The notes: a model not told the origin generated them from the sequence alone. A stretch of DNA of 28,255 nt from a virus (IMGVR_UViG_3300048032_000045:1-28255); one strand, 5' to 3'. Counted from the stretch's first letter, positions 2 to 16,567 are shown. Numbers and translations: made by a program.

Positions 2-292
2 AACGCAGAAGTTGTTGTTAGAGGAAATGATATTAACACTTGTGAAATTGAATGGCACAATGGAACAACACCTATACCAGTAGCTGACATAGAAGCTAAA
101 ATGAATGAGATGGCTAATGAGCCAGAACAATCTGATTATGCACAACAAAGAAGAAATAGTTACCCTGAAATTGGAGATCAACTAGATATGTTGTGGCACT
201 CAATAGATCAAAACCCATCTTTAAAATCGCAATATTTTGATTTCTATGAAGCTATTAAAGCAGTTAAGGTAAAATACCCTAAGAATGGCTAA
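2..292 (+). CDS. Conserved phage virion-region protein, 5' truncated
   Basis: The reading frame is open from the first bases of the window, so the true start lies upstream; the internal ATG at 101 is probably not the start. The visible 96 residues are hydrophilic. The C-terminal part has a pattern with YPEIGDQLDMLWHSID followed by a helix rich in Tyr, Phe and Lys ending KYPKNG. From memory, this block recurs in short proteins encoded near tail-fibre genes of marine phages. Its stop codon overlaps the start of the next gene. The function is unknown; a tail-fibre-associated or assembly role is inference from position only. Confidence 0.7.
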   Translation, partial: NAEVVVRGNDINTCEIEWHNGTTPIPVADIEAKMNEMANEPEQSDYAQQRRNSYPEIGDQLDMLWHSIDQNPSLKSQYFDFYEAIKAVKVKYPKNG

Positions 293-626
293 TATATATA
301 AAAATGCAATGTTTGATCTAACAACGACAAACAAAACAACTGTTTATACTGTTCCTACAGACAGAACCGCTTTAGTAAAATCTATTCAAATAACTAATAT
401 TCATACAGGTAATATTGAGGTTGAGGCATTTGCTACAGATAGTTCAGATTCTGGTGCAGAGCATGAAGTAGCTCATATATCACTTGCATCTAAAACAGTA
501 GATAATCTTGTCAAAGGAACTATGGTTTTAGAATCTGGAGATACTTTAAAATTACAAGCAGCATCTGCTAATAACATAGCAGGTATTGTTAGTTATGTAG
601 AAATATTTGACGAAAAGAGTGCTTAA
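285..626 (+). CDS. Small putative virion surface protein
   Basis: A 113-residue protein whose start overlaps the upstream gene's stop by 8 bases. It is rich in Thr, Ser, Val and Ile with alternating hydrophobic residues (TVYTVPTDRTALVKSIQITN, then IEVEAFATD), which suggests a beta-sandwich. It resembles in style the small proteins at 25658 and 26069 of this window (Ser/Thr-rich, beta, about 100 residues). Such proteins in marine phages usually sit with head or tail genes. No signal peptide or membrane segment is seen. A decoration or tail-accessory role is inference. Confidence 0.65.
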   Translation: MANIYKNAMFDLTTTNKTTVYTVPTDRTALVKSIQITNIHTGNIEVEAFATDSSDSGAEHEVAHISLASKTVDNLVKGTMVLESGDTLKLQAASANNIAGIVSYVEIFDEKSA

Positions 627-661
627 TTATATATTGTTTTTAAGTATTTTTTAATGTATTT

Positions 662-1099
662 ATGAATTTAGTACGAATACCAATTCAAGAACTTGAAAAA
701 GTTTGGAGCATGATTGAAAAGGATATTAAATCAGCTCTTGCATACTCAAGTCAACTTACCGATTCAGATTTTGTTTTTGATCTTGCTAAAGAAGGAAAAT
801 TCCAAATTTGGGTACTATGGGATAAAGAACAAAAGATTACAGCCAATAAATACTTTGGTGTTGTAGTAACTGAATTGATAAAAAGAAAATTTGGTAAAGT
901 TTGTCATATCTATATAATGACTGGCAGACAAAGAAATAAGTGGCAACACTTAATTAGTAAGATAGAAAATTTTGCTAAAGAAGAAGGTTGCAAAATGATG
1001 GAACTAATTGCTAGACCAGGTTGGCAAAAAGTTTTAAATGTCTTTGACTACAAAAGAACTCATGTAGTTTTAGAAAAAGAAATAAAACAGGAGAAATAA
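662..1099 (+). CDS. GNAT-like fold protein, possible T7 gp13-type virion assembly factor
   Basis: A 145-residue protein. The middle and C-terminal parts (about residues 60-135) look like a reduced GNAT acyltransferase fold: a strand FGVVVTEL, strand HIYIMTG, the RQRNKW region where GNATs bind acyl-CoA, a long helix, then strand MMELIARPGWQKVL and a final strand THVVLEKEI. T7-like and marine podoviruses carry proteins of this fold next to their internal virion protein genes, with T7 gp13 acting in assembly. The same position just upstream of the probable ejection proteins supports that. An active acetyltransferase remains possible. No strong ribosome site is seen before the ATG. Confidence 0.55.
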   Translation: MNLVRIPIQELEKVWSMIEKDIKSALAYSSQLTDSDFVFDLAKEGKFQIWVLWDKEQKITANKYFGVVVTELIKRKFGKVCHIYIMTGRQRNKWQHLISKIENFAKEEGCKMMELIARPGWQKVLNVFDYKRTHVVLEKEIKQEK

Positions 1100-1102
1100 A
1101 TT

Positions 1103-1798
1103 ATGTCATCAGGCGGAGGAGGAAACACTACACAACAACAGGTAACACCTTATGCACCAGCAGAACCAGGATTGGCTCAGATTTTATCTGAAGCTAGTCA
1201 ATTATATAATCAAGGTGTAGGTGCAGCAGGTTATGTAGCACCCACTCAACAAACTTTAACAGGTCTTGCTCAACAAGAAGCATTAGGTACTGCATCACAA
1301 CAACAGTTAGCAGACACTTTATCTGGTCAATATTTAAATCCTTTTTTATCTCCTCTCCTACAAAAGACAGCAGGAGATATAGCAACAGGAGTTCAATCAC
1401 AATTTAGTGCAGCAGGAAGAACGCCAGGTTCTCCCATGTCGCAACAACAAATAGTTTCACAAGTAGCACAAGCTGCTTTACCTTTAGCTTTTGGTCAGTA
1501 CGAAACTGAAAGAGGCAGACAATTAGGTATTGCATCTCAATCACCTAGTTTAGTTCAAACAGGAGCTCAATTAGAAAACATTCAAAGACAAAGACAATTA
1601 GCTCCAGCTCAAGCATTACAACAATACTCAGGTTTTGTATCACCAATTGCTACTGGACTACCTACAACAATAGGATCAACACAAACACAATCTAACCCAT
1701 TTTCTACTGCATTAGGTGGTGCGATGGTTGGTGGACAATTTGGAGCTACAGGTGCATTAATAGGTGGTGGTTTAGGATTATTAGGAGGACTATTATAA
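1103..1798 (+). CDS. Gln/Ala/Gly-rich putative internal virion protein
   Basis: A 231-residue protein preceded by a clear ribosome site (CAGGAGA). It is rich in Gln, Ala, Gly and Ser and nearly free of charge, with Gln-rich helical stretches (about 55-150). It ends in a hydrophobic Gly-rich tail (about 203-231; GGAMVGGQFGATGALIGGGL) resembling a membrane-inserting glycine-zipper segment. It is the first of a cluster of probable ejection proteins. In podoviruses such small Ala/Gly-rich proteins (P22 gp7-like, T7 gp14-like) are ejected into the host envelope. Assignment to that role is inference from composition and position; no specific family was recognised. Confidence 0.5.
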   Translation: MSSGGGGNTTQQQVTPYAPAEPGLAQILSEASQLYNQGVGAAGYVAPTQQTLTGLAQQEALGTASQQQLADTLSGQYLNPFLSPLLQKTAGDIATGVQSQFSAAGRTPGSPMSQQQIVSQVAQAALPLAFGQYETERGRQLGIASQSPSLVQTGAQLENIQRQRQLAPAQALQQYSGFVSPIATGLPTTIGSTQTQSNPFSTALGGAMVGGQFGATGALIGGGLGLLGGLL

Positions 1799-1908
1799 TG
1801 GATAAAATAAAAAAAATAATTTACGATTTTAAAACAGACATAGATAATAATACATCTAAATATATTATTATTCTTGGTGTACTATTTTTAATTTCAATAA
1901 TTTCATAA
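1798..1908 (+). CDS. 36-residue single-pass membrane peptide
   Basis: The ATG overlaps the stop of the upstream gene in a TAATG arrangement, the coupling used throughout this phage. The peptide has a short Lys/Asp-rich head and a hydrophobic segment (YIIILGVLFLISIIS) that reaches the C-terminus, predicting one membrane helix with the N-terminus cytoplasmic. No family was recognised. Position between two probable ejection-protein genes suggests a virion or envelope role, but that is a guess. Confidence 0.5.
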   Translation: MDKIKKIIYDFKTDIDNNTSKYIIILGVLFLISIIS

Positions 1909-1923
1909 AAGGATTAATTCTTA

Positions 1924-3108
1924 ATGAATGACCTTAAAAAATACGCAGGACTTCTAAACGATATAGCACCTAAAGGTGAATTTTTAGCATATATAAATCA
2001 AGACGAAGCAGAAATGCTTAAAGATAATGGTGCATTAGGTTTATTAACACCACAAGGTATTCCATCTTATAGAGGTGCAGGAGGTTATCAAGGTGGTAGT
2101 GGAGCAGCAGGAAGTGCAGAATCATCTAGTTCAAGCTCAAGTTCATCAAGCAGCGGTGGAGGAAACTCTGGCGGTGGTGGTGGTGGCGGTGGTGGCGGTG
2201 GTGGTGGCGGTCAAAGTTATTCACCTTCATCTGCACCCCCATCTGCACCTCCATCAATATTAAATTCACCAACAACATCTACACCTATATCAACTTATGA
2301 TGAAGCTGGAATTACGATGGGAAATGTAGATGCTGAAGATGAATACTTAGCACCAGATCCTAACCATTTCAAAGCTACACAAAAAGCAATTGGTAAAACT
2401 AATAAAGAATTAAGAGATCAAGGTTTAGATAAATCTGATTGGACAGATTATACTACAGAAGAACAAGATGCTTACCAAGCAGAAATGAATAGATTAAATG
2501 GTACAGAGGGTAAAAATTATTCTTTTTACAAAGGTAATAAAGGAACAACTAATTTAACTTTTGGCGAACATTTTAAAGATGTTGTTGTTACTGATCCTTT
2601 TTTAAAAACATCACCTCAATTAAGATTTTTAGTTGCAGCTGGTAGAACTATAAAAGAAAATGCTACAACTGATTATGGTACAGGTAATTATGGTGGTTAT
2701 ACTGCTGATGGCATGGGTAGTGGACAACCTATAGATAAAGGTGGCTGGATAGGTAGAGTATTTAATAGTGATGGATCAGTAAATCAAAATTTATCAGAAA
2801 CTCAAATTAATGATTTATATAATCAGGCACAAGTTGAGTTGCCTAATATAATATCTGACACAACTCCTCAAGATTCTATGGTAAATAAATATTTTGATAA
2901 TATGCTTATGACTCAAGGTTCACCATTAAGTTCTGATTTGCAAATAAGCTATAATAATGCTAAAAATAGTGTTAATAATATTTTGGGTATAACACCTACA
3001 AATCAGCAGTTTGGCTATTCAGCACAGCCGTATGGCGGTCTAATGGCTAGTAATTTAACAACTAACCCATATAATATAGATTATTTAAGGAGATTAGGAT
3101 TAATATAA
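1924..3108 (+). CDS. Putative internal virion (ejection) protein with Ser/Gly linker
   Basis: A 394-residue protein. Residues 1-50 are a compact N-terminal region. They are followed by a Gly/Ser-rich linker with 11 consecutive serines (67-77) and 14 consecutive glycines (83-96), then a Pro/Ser stretch (about 98-120). The remaining 270 residues are hydrophilic and Asn/Asp/Gly-rich without a recognised fold. Serine codons in the run are mixed (TCA, TCT, AGT, AGC), so it is not simply a DNA repeat. The stop overlaps the next start by one base. Position between the GNAT-like gene and two more large virion-type genes suggests an ejection or tail-associated protein; function is not certain. Confidence 0.55.
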   Translation: MNDLKKYAGLLNDIAPKGEFLAYINQDEAEMLKDNGALGLLTPQGIPSYRGAGGYQGGSGAAGSAESSSSSSSSSSSGGGNSGGGGGGGGGGGGGGQSYSPSSAPPSAPPSILNSPTTSTPISTYDEAGITMGNVDAEDEYLAPDPNHFKATQKAIGKTNKELRDQGLDKSDWTDYTTEEQDAYQAEMNRLNGTEGKNYSFYKGNKGTTNLTFGEHFKDVVVTDPFLKTSPQLRFLVAAGRTIKENATTDYGTGNYGGYTADGMGSGQPIDKGGWIGRVFNSDGSVNQNLSETQINDLYNQAQVELPNIISDTTPQDSMVNKYFDNMLMTQGSPLSSDLQISYNNAKNSVNNILGITPTNQQFGYSAQPYGGLMASNLTTNPYNIDYLRRLGLI

Positions 3109-4214
3109 TGATAGACAATTTAAGAAAAAGATATGAGCAATTGCAAGGTTTATTAAACACACCTGCTAATCAAGGTGGTGGATTATTAGGTAATATATCT
3201 CAAGGTGCTTTATTAGGTTCTGCTATCTATGGTCAAGGTATTCAAGGCAAAGATCCTTTTGCAGCAATTTTTCCTGCCGTAGTTCAAACAGCACAAACTC
3301 AGGCTTTTTTAAGTAAAACACAAGAACAAGAAAAAAAAAGAAAATATATTAATAAATATGGAGAAACTATACCAGAAGGTGAAGAAAGAGATTTATTTAA
3401 TTTAGATCCAGCAAGTTATATAAAAAATAAATTAACTCAAAAAAAACCAGATTTAATTAACATGATTGGTGGAGATCAAAAGACTCCAATAACCTTAAAT
3501 TTATCTAATAAAGAAGATTTACAAAAATTTAGAGAATTGAAATCTCAAGGGTTTTATGAGGTTGGTAAACCAGGAGTTCAAGCAACTTCATTATCTGGAA
3601 TATCAGGAGTTCCTAAATCAACTTTAACTGAAGCTGGTAAAAAATTATTAGGTGCAGAAGAATTACAAGTAACATTATCTAGTATGGAAAATTTATTTGA
3701 ACCTGAATTTTTAACATATAAAGGTAAAGGTAAAAAATTTATATCTGATACATTAAGTAAAGCAGGATATTCAAACTCACAAATAGATGCTTTTGCTCAA
3801 AGAAAAGCAGTATGGGATCAATCTGTTGAACAATATTTTAATCAATACAGAAAATTAATTACTGGTGTTGCAGCCGGTGAAAAAGAAATTGGTTTCTTAG
3901 AAAAATCAATACCAAGCAAAGGTGATGCACCAAATGTATTCTTATCAAAAGTAAGATTACAACAAAAATTAAATAATAAAATTATAGAAAGATCAAAAAG
4001 ATATTTACAAGGTGGTGGAGTTAAAACATTAGATAAAGAAGGTAAACCAACAGGTGCTTTTAAAAACTATTTAGAAAAAAATCCAATTCAAGTTGAAAGG
4101 GATGATGTTTTATCTATAACACAAGAATATAAAGATATGAATTATAATAAAAAGCAAATAGAATTTCAATTAAATCAACAGTTCGGAAACGAATGGAAAA
4201 AATTCTTTGAATAA
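3108..4214 (+). CDS. Putative internal virion (ejection) protein
   Basis: A 368-residue protein coupled by one-base overlaps to both neighbours. The N-terminal part has a Gly/Ala hydrophobic segment (about residues 23-65, GGLLGNISQGALLGSAIYG then FAAIFPAVVQTAQTQAFL), followed by a Lys-rich helical region. The C-terminal 180 residues are highly helical with an AEELQVTLSSMENLFEPEF block and a VAAGEKEIGFLEKSIPSKGD block. The latter is a pattern I associate with phage internal core proteins. No enzyme motif (lytic transglycosylase, protease) is visible. An ejection role is inference. Confidence 0.55.
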   Translation: MIDNLRKRYEQLQGLLNTPANQGGGLLGNISQGALLGSAIYGQGIQGKDPFAAIFPAVVQTAQTQAFLSKTQEQEKKRKYINKYGETIPEGEERDLFNLDPASYIKNKLTQKKPDLINMIGGDQKTPITLNLSNKEDLQKFRELKSQGFYEVGKPGVQATSLSGISGVPKSTLTEAGKKLLGAEELQVTLSSMENLFEPEFLTYKGKGKKFISDTLSKAGYSNSQIDAFAQRKAVWDQSVEQYFNQYRKLITGVAAGEKEIGFLEKSIPSKGDAPNVFLSKVRLQQKLNNKIIERSKRYLQGGGVKTLDKEGKPTGAFKNYLEKNPIQVERDDVLSITQEYKDMNYNKKQIEFQLNQQFGNEWKKFFE

Positions 4215-6196
4215 TGTCTGCTATTAATAATTTATTAGATGAGTTAAAAAAAACACAAATTACCCCATCTATTGAAAGTCCTACAGAAATTAAAGAAAAT
4301 ATTTCATCTACCAAAGATGCTGCAATATCTGGAACAGTTGGAGCTTTAAAAGGTATAAGTTATCTCATTGATTTACCACAAGCAATAAATGAATTAGGAT
4401 CTATGATAGTTGATAAAACTATGTCTCCTGCAAATAATTACATAAAAAGAAAAATGGGTAAATCACAACAAGAAATAGATGAAGAAAACAAATTAGCTAA
4501 AGAAATAGAATCTAAAATGTTTAAAATAAAACCAGGTGAATTAATTAGAAAAAATGTATTAACTTATCAACCTAGAACTACCGCAGGACAGTATGCAGAA
4601 ACTATTGGAGAATTTGCTGCACCTGGAGCTATATTAGGTAAAGGTGCAAAGACAAAAGCAATATTAACTGGAACTGGTGCTTTTTCTGGAGGTGTTGCAG
4701 AAGGTGTTGAGCAAGTTACCGGTAGTCAAGGTGCTGGAACTGTTGCTGGTGTAGGTACTAATATTGTATCTGACATATTAGCTTTAAGAAGGGGAAATGT
4801 TGCAGGTATAGCAAAAACATTATTACCAAAAGATGAGGTTATAAATAATACTCAAAAATTGCAAAATTATGCAGCTAGTAAAGGTTTAAAACTTACTGCT
4901 GGTGAAGCTAGTGGTAAAGCAAATCTTATTGCAACAGAAGGTAATATTAGAGTTTCTTTAGAAGGTGGAAAAATTATGGATGACTTTTATGAAACTAGAC
5001 CACAACAAATTGTAAATTTCATAAAAGGTTTTGCAAAAGAAACTGGATTATTAAGTGATCCATCTAAACTAAGTAGAACTCAAATTTTAAATGCAGAAAA
5101 AAAAGCAGGTATTTTATTACAAGCTAACAGATCAAAACTGTGGAATAAATCAGGTGGTGAAAAATTTAATAATACATATTTTAACCAAGTAGATATTGAC
5201 AATATTGTTGCAAAAATTTCTAAAATGCAAACACAAAAAACAAATAAACCTTATGTAAATATATTGGAAGATTATAAACAACAGTTATTAGTATCAGATG
5301 CTAAGGGTAAAAATTTACATGACATATTTAAAAATTTACAAGATAGTATTATTAACATATCTAAAAATCCTAACAAAACTTCAGCACTTAGATCAGAGCA
5401 AAGAATATTAAGTGATGTAAAAAATGATTTAGATTTAGTTTTAAGAAGCAATAAAAATTTTGCTAAAGCTCAAAAAAAATATGTTCAATATACAAATGCT
5501 TATATTAAACCAATTGATAAAACAAAACTATTTAAAGATATATCAGTTGCAGGTTGGGTAGATGACGCAGATGTGGTAGGTAGAGTTTATAGATATTTAG
5601 GCTCAGATAAAGTCTCTCCTAGAGATATAGAAAAATTAGCGAATTCATTTGGTAAATCAGGAAATTATGACAAGTGGAGATTAATTATTTCTGGATATTT
5701 TGATGAAGCATTTACTAAAGCATTAGCTGATAATATGAGTGAAGGATTAAATACAGGTGCTGTCTTTAGTAAAGCTATAGTTGGAAGTCCAAAAACAAGA
5801 AATAATTTTACTGAAATGTTATTTCAACTTTCTAAACAAAAAGGAAATAAAGTTACAAGAACACAAATGGCTAAGGCTGTAGATAGTTTTGCTATGGCAT
5901 TAAGATCAACTGGTAGAAATGCTAAAGCTGGTTCTCCAACTGCATCAAGAAGTAAACAAATGCAAGACTTACAAAGAAATTTTGGAGGACAAGTTATTGA
6001 AGGAATACCTGTAATAACTTATATAAAAAATATTTTAGACGAAAGAACATTATCTAAAAATTCTGAACTATTTGCTCAACGATTAACCTCTGATGATGGA
6101 ATTAAATCGTTTGTTGATTTAGCTCAAAACTTTAAAGATCCTGCTGCATTGGTTGCAGCTATTAGATCAATTGCTGTAGGTCAAAGGGTAGAATAA
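4214..6196 (+). CDS. Large putative DNA-ejection / internal virion protein
   Basis: At 660 residues this is the second longest gene in the window. Residues 30-60 and 130-190 contain Gly/Ala-rich amphipathic or hydrophobic stretches (AAPGAILGKGAKTKAILTGT, then GTVAGVGTNIVSDILAL). These resemble the membrane-active parts of podovirus ejection proteins (P22 gp16/gp20 and T7 gp15/gp16 classes). The rest is long, Lys/Asn-rich and mostly helical. I see no transglycosylase Glu motif. It is the last and largest of three coupled genes, the usual arrangement of ejection proteins. The assignment is inference from size, composition and order. Confidence 0.55.
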   Translation: MSAINNLLDELKKTQITPSIESPTEIKENISSTKDAAISGTVGALKGISYLIDLPQAINELGSMIVDKTMSPANNYIKRKMGKSQQEIDEENKLAKEIESKMFKIKPGELIRKNVLTYQPRTTAGQYAETIGEFAAPGAILGKGAKTKAILTGTGAFSGGVAEGVEQVTGSQGAGTVAGVGTNIVSDILALRRGNVAGIAKTLLPKDEVINNTQKLQNYAASKGLKLTAGEASGKANLIATEGNIRVSLEGGKIMDDFYETRPQQIVNFIKGFAKETGLLSDPSKLSRTQILNAEKKAGILLQANRSKLWNKSGGEKFNNTYFNQVDIDNIVAKISKMQTQKTNKPYVNILEDYKQQLLVSDAKGKNLHDIFKNLQDSIINISKNPNKTSALRSEQRILSDVKNDLDLVLRSNKNFAKAQKKYVQYTNAYIKPIDKTKLFKDISVAGWVDDADVVGRVYRYLGSDKVSPRDIEKLANSFGKSGNYDKWRLIISGYFDEAFTKALADNMSEGLNTGAVFSKAIVGSPKTRNNFTEMLFQLSKQKGNKVTRTQMAKAVDSFAMALRSTGRNAKAGSPTASRSKQMQDLQRNFGGQVIEGIPVITYIKNILDERTLSKNSELFAQRLTSDDGIKSFVDLAQNFKDPAALVAAIRSIAVGQRVE

Positions 6197-9969: not shown

Positions 9970-10205
9970 GTTTAAGAAAATGGACATCAGAGAAATGGGT
10001 GGACATTGCTAATCCCAAAAGAGGTGGAGGTTTTCCGCCATGTGGAAGATCAAAGGGTGAGAAAAGAAAGAACTATCCTAAGTGTGTTAAGTCATCTAAA
10101 GCTAGATCCATGACTGCAAGTCAGAGGAGAGCAGCAGTTTCAAGAAAAAAAACAGCAGAAAGAAAATCCAGAAAAGGTAAAAAACCTAATTATGCCAAGA
10201 CCTAA
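9966..10205 (+). CDS. 79-residue basic protein (DUF5872-like)
   Basis: Starts in the last codons of the preceding gene. It has the pattern KWVDIANPKRGGGFPPCGRS followed by YPKCVKSSKARSMTASQRRA and a Lys/Arg-rich tail. From memory this matches a family annotated as DUF5872, found in phages and marine bacteria. Cys26 and Cys40 are in conserved spots. It overlaps the next gene by 14 bases. The function is unknown; DNA or RNA binding is plausible from the charge. Confidence 0.65.
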   Translation: MSLRKWTSEKWVDIANPKRGGGFPPCGRSKGEKRKNYPKCVKSSKARSMTASQRRAAVSRKKTAERKSRKGKKPNYAKT

Positions 10206-10407
10206 TAAAACTTGGATTAGAAAAGAAAAAATTATTGATGTAGGTAAATGTAAGTATTGTAATCAATCTATGACCTCAGAAGATTCATTTATTCCAATTG
10301 GTAAAATAATAAGAGGTAAGTATATTTATAAAAATGCACACTATGATTGCGTAAGAAAAGCAGACGAAGATAAGACTTATGAGAATGAGTCTAAGTTTGA
10401 TTGGTAA
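10192..10407 (+). CDS. 71-residue zinc-finger-like protein
   Basis: The last gene of the leftward plus-strand block. A CKYCNQSM motif (Cys19, Cys22) and a later HYDCV (His50, Cys53) form a plausible CxxC...HxxC zinc site, with a GKIIRGKYIYKNAHYDC strand-turn between, like small phage zinc-ribbon proteins. The C-terminus is acidic, unlike its neighbours. Its stop codon directly abuts the stop of the minus-strand gene with no spacer. The role is unknown; DNA binding is possible. Confidence 0.6.
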   Translation: MPRPNKTWIRKEKIIDVGKCKYCNQSMTSEDSFIPIGKIIRGKYIYKNAHYDCVRKADEDKTYENESKFDW

Positions 10408-11046
10408 TTAATATCCCCAAAATTTCTTAGCATTTTGTAAGTAATCTTCGTTAGCATCATTATTCCAAAACATATGTGTAAAGTCTGGTTGGATATAATC
10501 TTTAAGAACATTTGGATCATTACTGATCTTCATTAAGTTCTGTCTTACTTTAGCTCTTTGTATTATTCTAGGTATTCTTTTCTTAATATTCTCAGGTTTA
10601 AGTTCATCACAATTATCTGCATGATACACTTTAAATTCTTTCTCATTGACATAACAAAGATAAACTGGAACTTCAAATACTGACCAATAGAAATCAACTT
10701 GAAGAAGATTGTATGGTGAGGGTCTGTCAGGTAACTTACCTGGAAACCAAGACCTAGTGCCATCTTTTTTAACCATACCCCTTCTTGGCATCTTACATTT
10801 ATCTTCAATAATAACTTTATCCCCTTTTAAATCTATGTAACCATGAACAGGAATATTGATACCATCAAACCATTTAAAGGCTTCTATCTCTGGCTTACAA
10901 GACTCCCAACCTGGAATAGATTGGTGAGCCTTATGACAATTAGCAATCATAGCTGGAACTATACTTTTATAATGACTTAACTTTTCTTGGTCATCAGGTG
11001 TAAGTGCAACTAATTTATCTAGCTTTTCTTGAACAGGTACAAACAT
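10408..11046 (-). CDS. PD-(D/E)XK (RecB/Cas4-like) nuclease, catalytic C-terminal part
   Basis: A 212-residue protein carrying the catalytic motifs of the RecB/Cas4-type nuclease fold: PEIEAF (Glu53), GYIDL (Asp72), IIEDKCK (Glu81, Lys83) and a later LLQVDFYW (Gln116, the QxxxY-type motif). It lacks the usual N-terminal helices (the LSPSQLN...W...Y segment). That segment is found in a separate gene at 13754-14005, so this looks like the second half of a split exonuclease. Phage enzymes of this type chew 5' ends for annealing. Residues 1-45 are helical (KLDKLVALTPDDQEKLSHYK). It is the last gene of the minus block. Confidence 0.75.
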   Translation of the reverse strand: MFVPVQEKLDKLVALTPDDQEKLSHYKSIVPAMIANCHKAHQSIPGWESCKPEIEAFKWFDGINIPVHGYIDLKGDKVIIEDKCKMPRRGMVKKDGTRSWFPGKLPDRPSPYNLLQVDFYWSVFEVPVYLCYVNEKEFKVYHADNCDELKPENIKKRIPRIIQRAKVRQNLMKISNDPNVLKDYIQPDFTHMFWNNDANEDYLQNAKKFWGY

Positions 11047-11420
11047 TACTCAGTACCTAATGTTTTTTGATGTTCTTTGTAAAAATTATCTCTTTCTTTT
11101 TCGTAAGCCATATTAAATTCTTCTGCAACGACATCTAATTCTTTATAGTCATCTAAGAAATAACTTAGTGGTTTTTTTAAAAATTTACTTATCTTAATTA
11201 AATTAACAACTGGTATTCTATTCTCACCTTTTTCATATTTACCAATTTGTTGAAATGTTGTTTTTAGTGCATTGGCAACTTTAGTCTGAGGTATAATTGT
11301 TTCCTTACCAGTAAACTCATTAACCTTAGTTCTTCTTGCTTGTTTTATTTTTTTACCTAGATTTATATAGAACGCATTATCTTCTTCATGGTTCTTTTTA
11401 GCTTTGGGTGATAATCTCAT
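11046..11420 (-). CDS. XRE-family helix-turn-helix regulator
   Basis: A 124-residue protein. Residues about 19-90 form a lambda-repressor-like domain: LGKKIKQARR, then IPQTKVANALKTTFQQIGKY (turn and recognition helix), EKGENRIPVVNLIKISKFL, and KPLSYFL. The tail is short and acidic, with no protease or dimerisation domain of the LexA/cI kind. An AAGGAAGG ribosome site precedes the ATG. A promoter with a palindrome just upstream lies at 11443-11500, so it may control itself. Its position inside the minus block suggests control of the early genes. Confidence 0.85.
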   Translation of the reverse strand: MRLSPKAKKNHEEDNAFYINLGKKIKQARRTKVNEFTGKETIIPQTKVANALKTTFQQIGKYEKGENRIPVVNLIKISKFLKKPLSYFLDDYKELDVVAEEFNMAYEKERDNFYKEHQKTLGTE

Positions 11421-11442
11421 TGTGTTCCTTCCTTTAATTTAG

Positions 11443-11471
11443 AGTATAGAATCCCTTAAGTGTTTATGCAA
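11443..11471 (-). promoter_or_regulatory. Sigma-70-type promoter for the XRE regulator
   Basis: On the minus strand, TTGCAT (11466-11471) and TATACT (11443-11448) are separated by exactly 17 bases, close to the sigma-70 consensus. The predicted start, near 11436, gives a short leader before the ATG at 11420 with its ribosome site. The window from 11421 to 11489 contains no gene. Confidence 0.65.
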
Positions 11472-11478
11472 CTTTTTA

Positions 11479-11500
11479 TATATACTTAATTAAGTATATA
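11479..11500. promoter_or_regulatory. 22-bp perfect palindrome, operator candidate
   Basis: Arms TATATACTTA and TAAGTATATA around a central AT form an exact 22-bp palindrome. It lies 7 bases upstream of the -35 box of the XRE promoter and covers the stop codon of the neighbouring minus gene. It is A+T-only apart from one C and one G, so it is not a usual terminator. A dimeric HTH protein site is the natural reading; which protein binds is unknown. Confidence 0.5.
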
Positions 11501-11675
11501 AAAATCTAGCATCTTTGTTCTCTGCTTCAACAATTCTTCGGAATAATTGATTGTATTCCTTAAATGCTTTCAGAGTATGTACACATTGCCTTCCCTTATC
11601 TTTAGCAGCATAAACTTTTTTATGTGCCTTATCTAGCTTATTGTACAATCTAGTATTGCTATTTTTTAAGCTCAT
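11490..11675 (-). CDS. 61-residue basic hypothetical protein
   Basis: The frame is open upstream, but the ribosome site GAGGAGA lies just before tandem ATGs at 11678 and 11675. I chose 11675 (spacing 4-7 bases), giving MSLKNSNTRLYNKLDKAHKK at the start. It is Lys/Arg-rich and helical, with the region TLKAFKEYNQLFRRIVEAEN toward the C-terminus. It overlaps the upstream gene's end. The longer reading from 11825 lies over the real gene at 11659-11865 and is rejected. No family was recognised. Confidence 0.6.
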   Translation of the reverse strand: MSLKNSNTRLYNKLDKAHKKVYAAKDKGRQCVHTLKAFKEYNQLFRRIVEAENKDARFLYT

Positions 11676-11865
11676 CATTCTCCTCACCAATAAGTTTGAT
11701 ATTTGCACTAATAAGTTTGTTATCGGTGATATTTGCTTTTGCAAACTCACTAGGCATTTTCTGACCATGTGCTTTTTGTGTAGCTTCTTCCACACTAGCA
11801 CCATCAAAAACTTCTTCAAAGTCAACTGCTAATTCTAAACTTGATCTTTTTAAGACTTTAAACAT
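11659..11865 (-). CDS. 68-residue acidic hypothetical protein
   Basis: Starts inside the end of the upstream LexA-like gene (8-base overlap) and overlaps the next gene by 17 bases. It has alternating hydrophobic strands and a helix rich in Glu/Ala (EVFDGASVEEATQKAHGQ), then ITDNKLISANIKLIG. This looks like a small alpha/beta fold of unknown function. Coupling on both sides supports it. Confidence 0.55.
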   Translation of the reverse strand: MFKVLKRSSLELAVDFEEVFDGASVEEATQKAHGQKMPSEFAKANITDNKLISANIKLIGEENDELKK

Positions 11866-12091
11866 TTAAAACTATATTTCTGCTATAACCAGAGTAATCT
11901 CTTTTAATCTCATCTCTTTGTTCTAGCTTTTCAATCAGCGAACTAATTGAATTTTTACTTTTGTAACCCATTTCATTAGCCATTTCTAAAAATGTTGGCA
12001 TATATCCATGTTTTGTACTATAATTTTTAAGATATTGCAATAGTCTGAGCATTTTAGGAGTCATTGGTCTTTTACCTCTTTTCTTGTTCAT
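11858..12091 (-). CDS. LexA-type winged-helix DNA-binding protein (DNA-binding domain only)
   Basis: A 77-residue protein that matches the N-terminal LexA DNA-binding pattern: MTPKMLRLLQYLKNYSTKHG, then YMPTFLEMANEMGYKSKNSI and a wing ending RNIVLNV. The S24 self-cleaving domain of LexA is absent. An AAGGAGG ribosome site lies about 10 bases upstream of ATG 12091. It probably acts as a phage regulator, either binding a host-LexA-like box or a phage operator. It sits between unknown small genes and upstream of the XRE regulator. Confidence 0.75.
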   Translation of the reverse strand: MNKKRGKRPMTPKMLRLLQYLKNYSTKHGYMPTFLEMANEMGYKSKNSISSLIEKLEQRDEIKRDYSGYSRNIVLNV

Positions 12092-12371
12092 TTATTACTA
12101 ACCTCCTTAATAATTCTGCATAGCCATTGATGTCATCAAAACTATCTTTTTTATAATTTTCCGATTGCATAACTCTCCAAAGTTTTAAAAAAATCATAAA
12201 GATACCAAACAATTTTAAAGGTACTTTGACCTCAACATTATTATAAACTGATAAATATTTTTCTAAAATTCCTGACATAACATAAGAGGTATGGTCAAAT
12301 TCACCATAATCATCTTGCTTTTCTTTTAATAATCTTTCTATCTCACTTATAAACTTAACATTATCTGACAT
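12072..12371 (-). CDS. DUF6378-type phage protein
   Basis: A 99-residue protein. I chose ATG 12371 (AAGGA 6 bases upstream) over the ATG at 12386. Residues 10-90 fit a small helical phage family annotated DUF6378: KQDDYGEFDHTSYVMSGILE, then VPLKLFGIFMIFLKLWRVMQ and DSFDDINGYAELLRRL. The central hydrophobic helices are probably the core rather than membrane spans. The fold is thought to relate to nucleotide pyrophosphatases such as MazG, but I see no complete catalytic motif. It overlaps both neighbours. The function is unknown. Confidence 0.65.
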   Translation of the reverse strand: MSDNVKFISEIERLLKEKQDDYGEFDHTSYVMSGILEKYLSVYNNVEVKVPLKLFGIFMIFLKLWRVMQSENYKKDSFDDINGYAELLRRLVINEQEKR

Positions 12372-12564
12372 AATTTCCTTCATCATCTTTACACCAATAA
12401 GCAGCTACTTGTTTTCCTTTGTACCTAACTCCTTTAGGTAAGTGATTTATTGTTGTAACTTTTTCTAATCTGTTAAAGCAATTTATAGAGGAACTATCAA
12501 AAGGATAAACGATATTCTCAATAGTTCCATCTATAAAAAACATAAATAAAAAAACTACTTTCAA
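12361..12564 (-). CDS. 67-residue small exported or membrane protein with two cysteines
   Basis: Begins at a TTG directly following the stop of the upstream gene (TAATTG arrangement); an ATG at 12543 is the alternative. The N-terminus is hydrophobic (VVFLFMFFIDG), followed by a polar domain with Cys29 and Cys58. The layout is the same as the products at 7431 and 8259, suggesting one family of small envelope-targeted proteins scattered in this phage. No catalytic motif is seen. Confidence 0.5.
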   Translation of the reverse strand: MKVVFLFMFFIDGTIENIVYPFDSSSINCFNRLEKVTTINHLPKGVRYKGKQVAAYWCKDDEGNYVR

Positions 12565-12930
12565 TTAAAAAGGAATTTCTTTGCTTTTAGGTTTGTCTTG
12601 TTTAGGTCTAGGTTCATTCTTGTAACCAGATAAAATATTACCTGATTCATTAATCCAACCAATTAAACCTTTGTGTCCACCAGCTTCAGAATAATTCATT
12701 TCGCCAGTAAATTTATCATCACCTTTGAATAGAACTCCTACTTGAGCAAACACTTTAACAAACTTAGTATTACCATCTCTTGATGCACCTTTGACACCAA
12801 GTATAGTACCCTTGTTGCCATTATCTAAATTTACATTTCCTGAGAAATCAATTTTGATGGCTTTTTCATTGTTGGCATCATAAGGAAATAATACCCAATC
12901 CTTTTGCTTACCACTACCATTGTCTGACAT
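12565..12930 (-). CDS. Putative single-stranded DNA-binding protein
   Basis: ATG 12930 is chosen because GGAGG sits 5 bases upstream; the in-frame ATG at 12972 has none. The 121-residue protein is Gly/Asn/Lys-rich with a beta-strand-rich core (DWVLFPYD, AIKIDFSGNVNL, KFVKVFAQVGVLF). It ends KSKEIPF, the acidic/IPF-type C-terminus that SSBs use to dock partner proteins. I do not see a confident OB fold. Adjacency to the annealing protein (17-base overlap) supports the role. Assignment is inference from the C-terminus and context. Confidence 0.55.
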   Translation of the reverse strand: MSDNGSGKQKDWVLFPYDANNEKAIKIDFSGNVNLDNGNKGTILGVKGASRDGNTKFVKVFAQVGVLFKGDDKFTGEMNYSEAGGHKGLIGWINESGNILSGYKNEPRPKQDKPKSKEIPF

Positions 12931-13507
12931 TCTGTCCTCCATTTTGTTTGATAGATTGTTGTTGTGATTCAAAGTCTTTTTCTATTGAATCATTTTGTTT
13001 CTTCCAATCGGAATACAGAGCAGTCAACTTAGTTTCGGTTGTTTGCTTTTTAATTGTATCTTTAATTGAAATTTGTTGAGTAGATCCCTTTTGATTATTT
13101 AAGGCATTTACTAATTCTTCTGCACTAGCATATTCTGAACCTGATAGACCAAATGCAGCAATTGTTCTTCCTAAACTACTACTGGCACAATTCTCTAATG
13201 CACTTGTTTTATTTATAAAAGATGAATTTCTGTATTCTTCGGCAGTACCAACAGAATAAATTGTATCACCAATATATAATTCAGTTTTAACAATAACTCT
13301 TTCATTATCATGAAATAAAACTTCTTCATTAAATCTAGTTTCTGGAAAATATTTAAGCAAATGTCTTAATCTTTCATTAACTGTAGAATACTTTTTACCT
13401 TTAATATCTACAGTTGGAATATTTTTTGCTTCATCTAAACAAAGTTTTCTTCTTTCTTTAAACCCTCCCTTACTTTTTTCTTCTGTCGTCTGTGGCTTTA
13501 GTTTCAT
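12914..13507 (-). CDS. Putative single-strand annealing recombinase (ERF/Sak-like)
   Basis: A 197-residue protein preceded by GAAAGGA. The middle is distinctive: RFNEEVLFHDNERVIVKTEL, then YSVGTAEEYRNSSFINKTSA, ENCASSSLGRTIAAFGLSGS and EYASAEELVNAL. The block of small residues, then SLGR, then AAFGL resembles the signature of ERF/Sak-type annealing proteins, where this segment follows a beta-sheet core. The C-terminal 60 residues are a flexible, charged tail. It is flanked by the SSB-like gene and a coiled-coil gene. Function is inference; I cannot confirm the family without a search. Confidence 0.55.
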   Translation of the reverse strand: MKLKPQTTEEKSKGGFKERRKLCLDEAKNIPTVDIKGKKYSTVNERLRHLLKYFPETRFNEEVLFHDNERVIVKTELYIGDTIYSVGTAEEYRNSSFINKTSALENCASSSLGRTIAAFGLSGSEYASAEELVNALNNQKGSTQQISIKDTIKKQTTETKLTALYSDWKKQNDSIEKDFESQQQSIKQNGGQNVRQW

Positions 13508-13757
13508 TTTTTCCTTTCATTTGTATCTTTTGGTTTTCTTTAATTTGGTCAATATCTTTCTGAGCTTTAGCTTCTAAATAACTTTTATTTTTTGCTACCA
13601 TTTGATCTTTAAGTTCAAGTAAATCTAATTTCTTTTTTAGTTCTGATATTTCATTATCCCTTAAATGTAATTGCTCAATATGTTTCTTTTCATTATTCTC
13701 ATAAGCTCTAATTTTAGTTTGCATCTTTGCAAGTTCCATCATTACAGTATCTGTCAT
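13470..13757 (-). CDS. 95-residue coiled-coil protein
   Basis: AAAGGT precedes the ATG. Residues 8-70 form a strong heptad helix (IEQLHLRDNEISELKKKLDL). A charged tail (MKGKNETKATDDRRKK) overlaps the next gene. It sits between the N-terminal nuclease fragment and the annealing protein, so it could act as a coupling or loading factor in recombination. No enzyme motif was recognised. Confidence 0.5.
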   Translation of the reverse strand: MTDTVMMELAKMQTKIRAYENNEKKHIEQLHLRDNEISELKKKLDLLELKDQMVAKNKSYLEAKAQKDIDQIKENQKIQMKGKNETKATDDRRKK

Positions 13758-14005
13758 TTTTTACCTTTCATTACTTCTTCAAGTGTTAATTTATGAACAA
13801 TAATATCCTGTACTGCCTGACCTACTATTGCTCCTATATCCATGTTTAAGTTACCCAATAAATCTTTTCTTTGTTTAGCAGTTAAGATTATGTAATCGTT
13901 AAACCAAATATCTAAACTTTTATTGAGCTGTGAAGGTGATAAATGATCTGCTGTAAATGTTCCACCTTCTTCTTTTTTTGTCCATTCTTTTCCAATTGTT
14001 TTCAT
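13754..14005 (-). CDS. N-terminal segment of a RecB/Cas4-like exonuclease, apparently detached
   Basis: An 83-residue protein with the opening helices of phage RecB/Cas4-like nucleases: HLSPSQLNKSLDIWFNDYII (residues 21-40), then NLNMDIGAIVGQAVQDIIVH, ending with LTLEEVMKGKK. Intact family members continue after such a block into a helix and the E...D...ExK core. Here the gene stops and the core is in the gene at 10408-11046. The ATG has no strong ribosome site and lies only about 10-30 bases from the possible transcription start. Both pieces are on the same strand and in order. Confidence 0.6.
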   Translation of the reverse strand: MKTIGKEWTKKEEGGTFTADHLSPSQLNKSLDIWFNDYIILTAKQRKDLLGNLNMDIGAIVGQAVQDIIVHKLTLEEVMKGKK

Positions 14006-14015
14006 AACTTAATCT

Positions 14016-14050
14016 TTTATATTCTATACAAAAAGTGTCAATAAATTATA
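14016..14050 (-). promoter_or_regulatory. Probable promoter upstream of the nuclease N-terminal gene
   Basis: The 56-base gap 14006-14061 contains on the minus strand TTGACA (14036-14041), with TATAAA (14016-14021) at 14-base spacing, which is short. Alternatively a perfect TATAAT (14045-14050) serves as -10 without a clear -35. Either would start transcription close to the ATG at 14005. Confidence 0.35.
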
Positions 14051-14061
14051 CAAATAATATT

Positions 14062-14553
14062 CTACTCTAGGGTTTCTTTTAGTTCTTTTAATTCTATTTT
14101 ATAAGCTGCAGGTCTATCTTGGTAGCCAAAATTTGATAGCTTTTCTGGTGGTAGATCATCATTATAAATAAATGAACCCATGATACTAAAATTAAAATCC
14201 TTATCATTATCTTTAATTATCAAAAAATAATTTCCTTTCTTCTCTCCAGGTCTTATTAGTAGAAAATTATATGATTTCTTTTCTTGAGTTCTTATTTCTA
14301 TATTGTTTTGAAAGTCTGAGTCTGAATAGAATTGGTTATCATCTGAGTAAGAACCATTATAAAAGCTATTAGTTGCCTTTGCATAAGCCACCTCTCCTAA
14401 AGCTCCTAAGATGCCATCTGTTAGTTGTGATTTAATTCCTTTAGTGTAACCATAAGAAAAGGTTTTACCCATTTTAAGGTTGCCTATGTACCTCTTTGAT
14501 GCAATATTTAAGGCTAGTTCTACTTCGTTAGCTTCTAATTTAACTTTTAACAT
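14062..14553 (-). CDS. Restriction-endonuclease-like fold protein, degenerate catalytic motif
   Basis: A 163-residue protein. A helix GILGALGEVAYAKATN (Glu54 in the place of the first catalytic acid) is followed by DSDFQNNIEIRTQE (residues 78-91) and SYNFLLIRPGEKKG, then a hydrophobic strand. This matches a phage family with a PD-(D/E)XK-like core in which the second half of the motif reads E-x-R rather than E-x-K, so activity is doubtful. It overlaps the methyltransferase by 14 bases. It could be the nuclease partner of that enzyme or an unrelated common phage protein. The C-terminus is Lys/Glu-rich. Confidence 0.55.
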   Translation of the reverse strand: MLKVKLEANEVELALNIASKRYIGNLKMGKTFSYGYTKGIKSQLTDGILGALGEVAYAKATNSFYNGSYSDDNQFYSDSDFQNNIEIRTQEKKSYNFLLIRPGEKKGNYFLIIKDNDKDFNFSIMGSFIYNDDLPPEKLSNFGYQDRPAAYKIELKELKETLE

Positions 14554-15637
14554 TAAATAATCCTAGCTCTTTATGAATTCTTTTATTAGCAATATCAATA
14601 TAATCTTTATTTAATTCTATTAAAATAGCATTACGATTGTTTTGAGATGCAACAATTCCTGTAGTTCCACTTCCACCAAAAGGATCTAAAACTATACCAC
14701 CTTCAGGACAACCTGCTTTAATACATGGCTCAATTAAATCTTTTGGAAAAGTTGCAAAATGAGCTTCCTTGCAAGGTTTAGTGGTTATTGTCCAAACATT
14801 TCTTTTATTTTTAGTTTCTAAATTACCAACAGCTTTCATATTGCCATTTGATTTCATTCCACCATTACCTCTAGTGCTACCTTTTTGATTTTTAATATCT
14901 TGATTTAATCTTGTTAATGAAGTTGAAGCTAAAGGCTCTCTAATTGAATCTGCATCATAATAATATTTTTTAGATTTAGTTATTAACCATATCTTTTCAT
15001 GTGCAGAAGTTGGTCTATCTCTTACACTTTCAGGCATTGGATTTGGTTTATGCCAAATAATTTCTGACCTGATATACCAACCTGCATCTTGTAAGGCTAT
15101 AGCAATTCTATTTGGTATCATTACTAAATCTTTAGGTTTTATAGAGCCTTGAATAGTAGAAAATGGTTTATCTACAAACATTCTATCATCATTTTTTACA
15201 TCTTTTGCTTTTCTACCATTTATAGTTGTTGCATAACTATCACCATAGTTAATCCATATTGTTGCTGATTCTTTTAATTTTGGTTTTATTTCTTCAAAAA
15301 GATTTACAATATTTTTTATGTGTTCTTGATAAGTTTCTTCCAATCCTAATTGTTCGTCTTTTCTTTTTGCACCACATTCAGGACAATAATTTTTATATAT
15401 TGCATCACCAACAACATTACCTTTTTTAAACATTCCTGCATGACCTGTTTTAGTATCTTTAGAAATTTTTGTTAATCTTTTATGAGGACAATTTTTATCT
15501 CCACCAATCCAAGTTCCTGTACCATAATCTCTTAAACCCCAATAAGGTGGAGAAGTTACAACGCAATCAATAGAATTGTCATTTAATTCTTTTACTTTAT
15601 CAAAAACATTTCCATGTAATATTTTTATTTTATCCAT
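14540..15637 (-). CDS. DNA methyltransferase, class beta (N4-cytosine or N6-adenine)
   Basis: A 365-residue protein of the N6_N4_Mtase family. The catalytic motif TSPPYWGLRDY is at residues 28-38 and the AdoMet-binding DPFGGSGTTG at 318-327, so catalytic comes before AdoMet-binding (class beta order). An inserted zinc-binding region (Cys50, His52, then Cys85 and Cys88) sits between. Conserved KPNPMPESVRDRP and FATFPKDLIEP blocks are present, so it is likely active. The target sequence cannot be read from the protein; SPPY occurs in both N4-cytosine and N6-adenine enzymes. AAAGGA precedes the start. It may protect phage DNA from host restriction or regulate genes. Confidence 0.9.
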   Translation of the reverse strand: MDKIKILHGNVFDKVKELNDNSIDCVVTSPPYWGLRDYGTGTWIGGDKNCPHKRLTKISKDTKTGHAGMFKKGNVVGDAIYKNYCPECGAKRKDEQLGLEETYQEHIKNIVNLFEEIKPKLKESATIWINYGDSYATTINGRKAKDVKNDDRMFVDKPFSTIQGSIKPKDLVMIPNRIAIALQDAGWYIRSEIIWHKPNPMPESVRDRPTSAHEKIWLITKSKKYYYDADSIREPLASTSLTRLNQDIKNQKGSTRGNGGMKSNGNMKAVGNLETKNKRNVWTITTKPCKEAHFATFPKDLIEPCIKAGCPEGGIVLDPFGGSGTTGIVASQNNRNAILIELNKDYIDIANKRIHKELGLFNVKS

Positions 15638-15815
15638 TATTTTTTTTATCCTTTCTTGCTTGATCTAATTGTTTAACTCTTTTTTCATATTCTTCAATGC
15701 TTTCACCGGAAAAATGTTTAAACCAACATTCAGCACAGTAATCTTTACCTTTTTCAACTATATCGGCACTCATACCGCATTTAATACATTGCCTAACATC
15801 ACCATACATATTCAT
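15630..15815 (-). CDS. 61-residue zinc-ribbon protein
   Basis: Two CxxC knuckles (CIKCGM at residues 10-15 and CAECWF at 27-32) form a single zinc ribbon. A charged C-terminal helix follows (EYEKRVKQLDQARKDKK). It overlaps the methyltransferase start by 8 bases and the HNH gene end by 4. It could be a small DNA- or protein-binding adaptor. Confidence 0.65.
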   Translation of the reverse strand: MNMYGDVRQCIKCGMSADIVEKGKDYCAECWFKHFSGESIEEYEKRVKQLDQARKDKKNNG

Positions 15816-16567
15816 TCAAAATATTTATTTCCTTTGCTTATATTTTGTTTAGCGGTTAAGTATTGCAAATTATTCTCTACATGAAGTCCAGAAACATTTT
15901 CACCTTGTAATGGTATAATGTGGTCAACATGATAACCTTTTTTTCTATTTTGATATATTTCTCTTATCTTTTCTAAATTTGCCCATTTAGGAGTTCTCAT
16001 CAAAATATGCTTTGTTCTATGTAAAGATTTTAAATTATAATATAATTTATTATTAAGATAATGATTTCTATTCTTTTTTAAATAATATTCTTTATTTGCT
16101 AGAAAATGCTTTTTAAACGATTTTCTTTGTCTTAATTTTGCTTTAAGGGTAGACATTTTCAATCTTACTTGAAGTTTATTTTTTTCATGTAATATTGGAT
16201 CATTTATAATTTTTTGCCATCTTTCTTTAGCTATTTTTAAAATTTTTTTAGGGTTATTTAATCTCCATTTTCTATTTGTTTTTTTATCTCTTAATGGATT
16301 TTTATTTCTCCATTCTTTTCTTTTCTCTGCACCATTGTTTTTATAATAAGATTCTTTTTGTTGTTTAATAATTTTATCTCTATTCTCTAAACGATATTTT
16401 TTATGCCAAATTAAAAGTGTTTTTTTATTCTTTTTATAATATTTTTTTCTAAGTTTTGAACAACATTCTTTACAATTAGCTCTATAATTATTTTGATCTT
16501 TTCTAAACCAAAATTCTAAAATACTTTTAGTATTTTTGCATTTAGAACAATTTTTAGTTTGTTGCAT
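15812..16567 (-). CDS. HNH endonuclease, free-standing homing type
   Basis: A 251-residue protein. The N-terminus has two cysteine pairs (CSKCKNTKS and CKECCS) as a zinc ribbon. The middle is very Lys/Asn/Arg-rich. The C-terminus has the HNH core YHVDHIIPLQGENVSGLHVE followed by NNLQYLTAKQNISKGNKY, with DH and Asn/His residues in the expected order. This architecture recurs in phage group-I-type free-standing endonucleases. The codon bias is more A-rich than its neighbours and there is no ribosome site before the ATG, so it may be acquired and depend on coupling with the 20-residue peptide overlapping its start. Confidence 0.85.
   Translation of the reverse strand: MQQTKNCSKCKNTKSILEFWFRKDQNNYRANCKECCSKLRKKYYKKNKKTLLIWHKKYRLENRDKIIKQQKESYYKNNGAEKRKEWRNKNPLRDKKTNRKWRLNNPKKILKIAKERWQKIINDPILHEKNKLQVRLKMSTLKAKLRQRKSFKKHFLANKEYYLKKNRNHYLNNKLYYNLKSLHRTKHILMRTPKWANLEKIREIYQNRKKGYHVDHIIPLQGENVSGLHVENNLQYLTAKQNISKGNKYFE

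Follow-up and report, generated by a model that had tools for sequence, protein, structure and literature searches.

The window analysed here, a stretch of 28,255 nucleotides from a virus (IMGVR_UViG_3300048032_000045:1-28255), is a fragment of a phage resembling Pelagibacter phage HTVC106P, and thus of a pelagiphage, one of the ocean viruses that infect SAR11 bacteria. It carries two genes, encoding 83 and 212 amino acids, which a first-pass annotation had read as the separated parts of a RecB/Cas4-like nuclease lying about 2.7 kb apart. Both genes are present on the minus strand (14005-13754 and 11046-10408) and the measured gap between them is 2707 bp; we refer to them below as the N-half and the C-half.

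13754-14005, minus strand: N-half of the putative exonuclease (83 amino acids), the helical part, with HxSxxQ, W, Y, R and a GxxVxxxxQ helix
10408-11046, minus strand: C-half of the putative exonuclease (212 amino acids), the catalytic core, with E53, D72, E81, K83, Q116 and Y120

The closest named relative is HTVC106P itself, with 64.9% identity for the 83-residue and 72.0% for the 212-residue protein when each piece is searched on its own (tblastn); in that genome both pieces are labelled hypothetical protein. Eight genes had been counted between the halves; the HTVC106P annotation gives nine (gp13-gp21), and these nine follow the same order as in the window.

One-chain relatives of the two pieces

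Neither window piece has any match in Pfam or a significant one in PHROG. Since these scans of the pieces alone were uninformative, the link between them was found by way of relatives that carry both parts in one open reading frame (ORF). Five named phages have such a single ORF of ~270-360 amino acids, namely C72C1 (gp45), HTVC028P (gp07), HTVC034P (gp15), Greip (gp37) and HTVC010P (gp52), and several of the products are annotated as putative nuclease. Searched separately by tblastn, each piece matches C72C1 gp45, in order and in frame, inside the one ORF. We also built profiles of the N-part and the C-part from one-ORF relatives only and scored them against the 89 ORFs of the window: the N-part profile ranked the 83-residue ORF first (E=1e-14; runner-up 0.066), and the C-part profile the 212-residue ORF (E=2e-49; runner-up 0.1). 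Given these rankings, and given that C72C1 gp45 contains the two pieces in frame and in the right order, the match goes beyond chance. Ten columns of the N-part are at least 90% conserved in the one-ORF relatives; split N-halves have the same residue at seven of them, and at one further column R is replaced by K. One-ORF relatives without the N part occur, among the loci surveyed, only where the contig ends. The contrary case, in which the 212-residue form would be full length by itself and the 83-residue gene would belong to an unrelated family, was checked and does not hold, as the intact relatives carry both parts in one chain. It is thus well supported by these comparisons that the two genes encode the N- and C-terminal parts of one RecB/Cas4-type PD-(D/E)XK exonuclease, as the first-pass annotation had proposed.

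The one-ORF relatives also place the enzyme in a family. Against PHROG, 27 of 41 matched phrog_1706 (CRISPR/Cas system associated; best 7.8e-08) and 14 of 41 matched phrog_69 (exonuclease; best 6.3e-07), and the Pfam family PDDEXK_1 was found in 2 of 41 at 0.002. A sequence search of the PDB with the one-ORF profile gave no significant relative, and fold comparison was therefore used. An AlphaFold2 model of the one-ORF protein from a contig locus (L219; 96% identical to C72C1 gp45) reached a predicted local distance difference test score (pLDDT) of 93.3 and a predicted template modelling score (pTM) of 0.87. Its Foldseek matches include AdnA, the ACE1 Cas4-family nuclease, SSO0001, a Eubacterium exonuclease, RecBCD, RecE and MGME1, as well as viral PD-(D/E)XK and Cas4-family exonucleases. 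The fold is shared with SSO0001, ACE1, exonuclease 3l0a, RecE, AdnAB and RecBCD at a Foldseek probability of 0.98-1.00, and the D, ExK and QxxxY motifs are those of RecB/Cas4/RecE-type nucleases; these, however, are single chains or domains, and the identity in structure alignments is only ~10-14%.

Catalytic residues and the break point

When 60 sequences, split as well as one-ORF, were aligned, residues E53, G69, D72, E81, K83, Q116, Y120 and L149 proved invariant, among them all those picked out beforehand in the 212-residue protein (E53, D72, E81/K83 and Q116). They include the D...(D/E)xK motif (D72, E81, K83) and, after the core, the QxxxY motif (Q116, Y120); the C-half carries every residue of the D, ExK and QxxxY motifs. 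A motif-I His in the N-terminal helix is common in RecB/Cas4 nucleases, though not universal in the superfamily. At this position C72C1 has His (GTAVH), the split N-half has Gly (VGQ), and other one-ORF relatives have Gly or Asn; as Gly is also found in the one-ORF protein of HTVC028P, the His was not lost through the split. Because this His is lacking, we use 'RecB-type' for the fold and the core motifs and not for strict membership of the RecB family. The alignments show no conserved set of cysteines in either half that could correspond to the four-cysteine iron-sulphur cluster of Cas4, C146 alone being near-invariant.

In the joint alignment the end of the N-piece (LTLEEVMKGKK) and the start of the C-piece (MFVPVQEKLDK) fall at adjacent columns, and together the split pieces are ~6 residues longer at the junction than C72C1. 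Projected onto the one-ORF model, the N-half comprises helices 10-13, 17-26, 29-33 and 39-57 and most of helix 61-73; the break lies near residue 68, toward the end of that last helix and ahead of the loop 74-82, and the C-half starts just ahead of the long helix 83-108, which is followed by the beta core. The split thus separates the N-terminal helical part from the catalytic core. At the DNA level, the stop codon of the N-half overlaps the start of the next gene, cc95 (ATGA), and the start codon of the C-half overlaps the stop of a helix-turn-helix (HTH) gene (TAATG); because of these overlaps, the two halves probably have different neighbours as partners in translational coupling.

The one-chain form would be regained if a split intein, trans-splicing RNA or recoding joined the two products covalently. 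Yet the ~6 additional residues relative to C72C1 leave no room for an intein at the junction, an Rfam search of positions 10000-14600 at E up to 1 gave no family, whether intron or other, and 2.7 kb with nine genes are beyond the reach of recoding. Covalent joining is therefore highly improbable, and its intein and intron forms were rejected on the junction length and the Rfam result. With no intein or intron found, non-covalent reassembly is the most likely route to a joint product.

Co-occurrence and selection of the two halves

The same split had been suggested as something to look for in relatives, and it was found in them. A first-round survey yielded 317 loci, some of them overlapping stretches of one contig, so that 79 distinct N/C protein pairs are the non-redundant figure for this set. 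Both pieces are separate genes in 128 of the 317 loci and form one ORF in 95. In the 128 split loci the pieces are always on the same strand, with a spacing of 2550-3633 bp where both are complete; a second, wider scan with the N-half added 52 further split loci (spacing 2512-3042 bp) and found no unpaired N-half on a sufficiently long contig. Seeming exceptions to the pairing are contigs that end too early or that have extra inserted genes, and the halves co-occur in every contig long enough for both, except for one odd contig (L077). The split sequences form a single clade with support of 100 in two trees. On contigs of cellular genomes the one-ORF form was found in seven (Pelagibacteraceae or Pelagibacterales) and the split form in one contig of a metagenome-assembled genome. 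Searched with the one-ORF profile, the complete genome of HTVC106P gave exactly two matches, the N and C pieces, and no intact exonuclease, whereas the complete genomes of the five one-ORF phages gave one match each; nine long split contigs (19-38 kb) likewise hold the two pieces only and no other copy.

Both halves are under equal purifying selection: in the 79 distinct pairs the median pairwise ratio of nonsynonymous to synonymous substitutions (dN/dS) is 0.217 for the N-half and 0.211 for the C-half, and the reading frames are intact. These data bear on the possibility that the N-half is a decaying remnant in a phage that no longer makes the exonuclease. The annotation of both genes as hypothetical and the distance between the pieces would fit such decay, but it is already contradicted by the dN/dS values on both pieces, by the intact frames and invariant catalytic residues and by the lack of unpaired N-halves on long contigs; we consider it very unlikely, and a remnant N-half was rejected on selection and co-occurrence. 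The first-pass annotation had also left room for one half having become independent, an alternative disfavoured by the co-occurrence, the matched purifying selection and the absence of another copy of the enzyme in HTVC106P and the nine long split contigs.

Coupling of the halves was further examined by a mirror-tree test on all 79 pairs. Among the 36 pairs of genes compared, N and C show the closest correlation of distances (r 0.83); their partial correlation, 0.59, came first in 98% of resamplings. The HTH gene, which abuts the C-half, correlates with that half at 0.42 only.

A probable two-part enzyme, its cassette and its origin

We assign a probability of about 0.82 to the reading that the two genes are halves of one exonuclease, split once, whose products would reassemble non-covalently and resect the ends of double-stranded DNA; the halves very probably come together as one working two-part enzyme. 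The N- and C-chains would fold together without a covalent link and rebuild the RecB/Cas4-type fold, the N-chain giving the N-terminal helices, including the motif-I helix, and the C-chain the D/ExK and QxxxY residues. Acting on double-stranded ends, the complex would provide single strands for the adjoining annealing and single-stranded DNA-binding (SSB)-like proteins. More speculatively, cc95 may aid assembly of the split enzyme, and the position of the catalytic half behind the HTH gene may allow separate control over the timing of nuclease activity.

Several points weigh against a two-part enzyme. The N-C correlation stems from the deep division of two clades, and in the window's own clade the pair ranks 21 of 36; since it is ordinary there, the mirror-tree signal is secondary and not decisive. 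The odd contig L077 lacks the N-half but has a C-half, together with an intact exonuclease of another type. Moreover, because every catalytic D/E/K residue sits on the C-half, this half alone might retain some activity. The C-half could then be a working nuclease by itself, with the N-half kept for another task, e.g. as a regulator of the annealing protein. The location of D72, E81, K83, Q116 and Y120 speaks for this, as do the model of the C-half alone (pLDDT 89.3, with a Foldseek match to SSO0001) and the absence of the motif-I His from the N-half. However, the residues kept by the N-half are those that one-ORF relatives conserve, not novel ones, its dN/dS matches that of the C-half, and the two co-occur; the His is also missing from the one-ORF protein of HTVC028P, and one-ORF relatives were found without the N part only at contig ends. 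We therefore regard a C-half acting alone as improbable.

As to the odd contig (IMGVR_UViG_3300001352_000854), its region 45-5433 contains an intact exonuclease of the Greip type, encoded on the opposite strand, as well as a PAPS-reductase-like gene; the split-lineage cassette comes next and ends in the C-half, with the N-half and cc95 missing. The contig may be an assembly chimera, or else a natural recombinant in which the split enzyme was replaced.

Starting from the N-half, the order of the intervening genes is cc95, a phrog_11717 protein, an SSB-like protein, a small gene, a DUF6378/MazG-like gene, a LexA-like gene, two small genes and the HTH gene. The main members in the window are:

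13470-13757, minus strand: cc95, a coiled-coil-like protein of 95 amino acids, possible assembly partner
12914-13507, minus strand: phrog_11717 protein at the annealing-protein position, putative annealing role from position only
12565-12972, minus strand: SSB-like protein, putative role from position and an acidic IPF tail
12072-12386, minus strand: DUF6378/MazG-like gene of the intervening cassette
11858-12091, minus strand: small LexA-like DNA-binding protein in the intervening cassette
11046-11420, minus strand: HTH regulator directly upstream of the C-half and overlapping it

The first of these, cc95, is present in 128 of 128 split loci and in 0 of 95 one-ORF loci, and its distances correlate with those of the N-half at 0.79 and of the C-half at 0.73. 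One could envisage a three-component exonuclease of a helical N-chain, a relocated catalytic C-chain behind the HTH regulator and a dedicated cc95 assembly protein, the activity of which would need products from both ends of the cassette; we put this forward tentatively, as a rather unlikely elaboration. Profile comparison of the phrog_11717 protein with the Sak-like protein of C72C1 and the Erf-like protein of HTVC034P showed no similarity, and for this reason its putative annealing role rests on position; it is possibly an undescribed family of annealing proteins. Promoter-like sites were no commoner than in shuffled sequences, and terminator-like sites were not found. Some relatives have extra genes between the halves (PAPS-reductase-like or methyltransferase-like; L006 170-997, L094 5702-6541, L076 126-581) and keep both halves.

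The one-ORF pelagiphage exonucleases resemble the split pair in their homology over the full length of both pieces and in the same invariant residues, and differ in having one chain, no cc95 and no relocated C-terminal part. Their genes adjoin the annealing-protein position or lie one small gene away: an annealing-annotated gene follows the exonuclease in C72C1, HTVC034P and Greip, a hypothetical one in HTVC010P, and in HTVC028P a 52-amino-acid gene intervenes. HTVC028P-type phages share the putative annealing protein and the MazG-like and HTH genes, arranged in the same order, and their cassette opens with the exonuclease in intact form; in the split lineage the N-half occupies this ancestral front position and the C-half lies at the back, behind the HTH gene. 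The best explanation is that the exonuclease gene was divided once, in an ancestor of the HTVC106P-like pelagiphages. Either the C-half moved, or the gene may have been duplicated to the far end with subsequent loss of complementary halves; intermediates (adjacent split genes or half-duplicated forms) were absent from the wider N-half scan.

Phage enzymes encoded in pieces have been described for Aeh1 NrdA, the DNA polymerase 43A/43B of phage 25/44RR and the T4 topoisomerase; split Aeh1 NrdA is reported to be fully functional, and 43A and 43B co-purify with polymerase activity (PMC2988022). As in those systems, an enzyme gene has been cut in two and its products would have to reassemble, and the pelagiphage pair shows the marks of genes in pieces, i.e. 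complementary pieces homologous to one chain and both retained by selection. In the known cases a homing endonuclease has been inserted at the break, or an untranslated spacer marks it (PMC2988022). Here, by contrast, nine resident genes separate the C-half from the N-half, and neither the window nor HTVC106P has a homing endonuclease between the halves. The open-licence literature searched holds no report of this split or of a recombination exonuclease in which one half has moved beyond nine genes. Enzyme fissions fixed across a whole viral group are uncommon, and the 79 distinct N/C pairs together with many one-ORF relatives are sufficient for studying the maintenance of a split active-site fold. 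The split also explains why a recombination exonuclease seems to be missing from HTVC106P-type pelagiphages: the two pieces bear the annotation hypothetical protein, and neither matches Pfam. If the pair works, it would be a naturally two-part nuclease resecting DNA ends. Upstream of the cassette, at 15812-16567, the window also encodes an endonuclease VII/HNH-like protein of 251 amino acids (phrog_1035, 5.9e-13).
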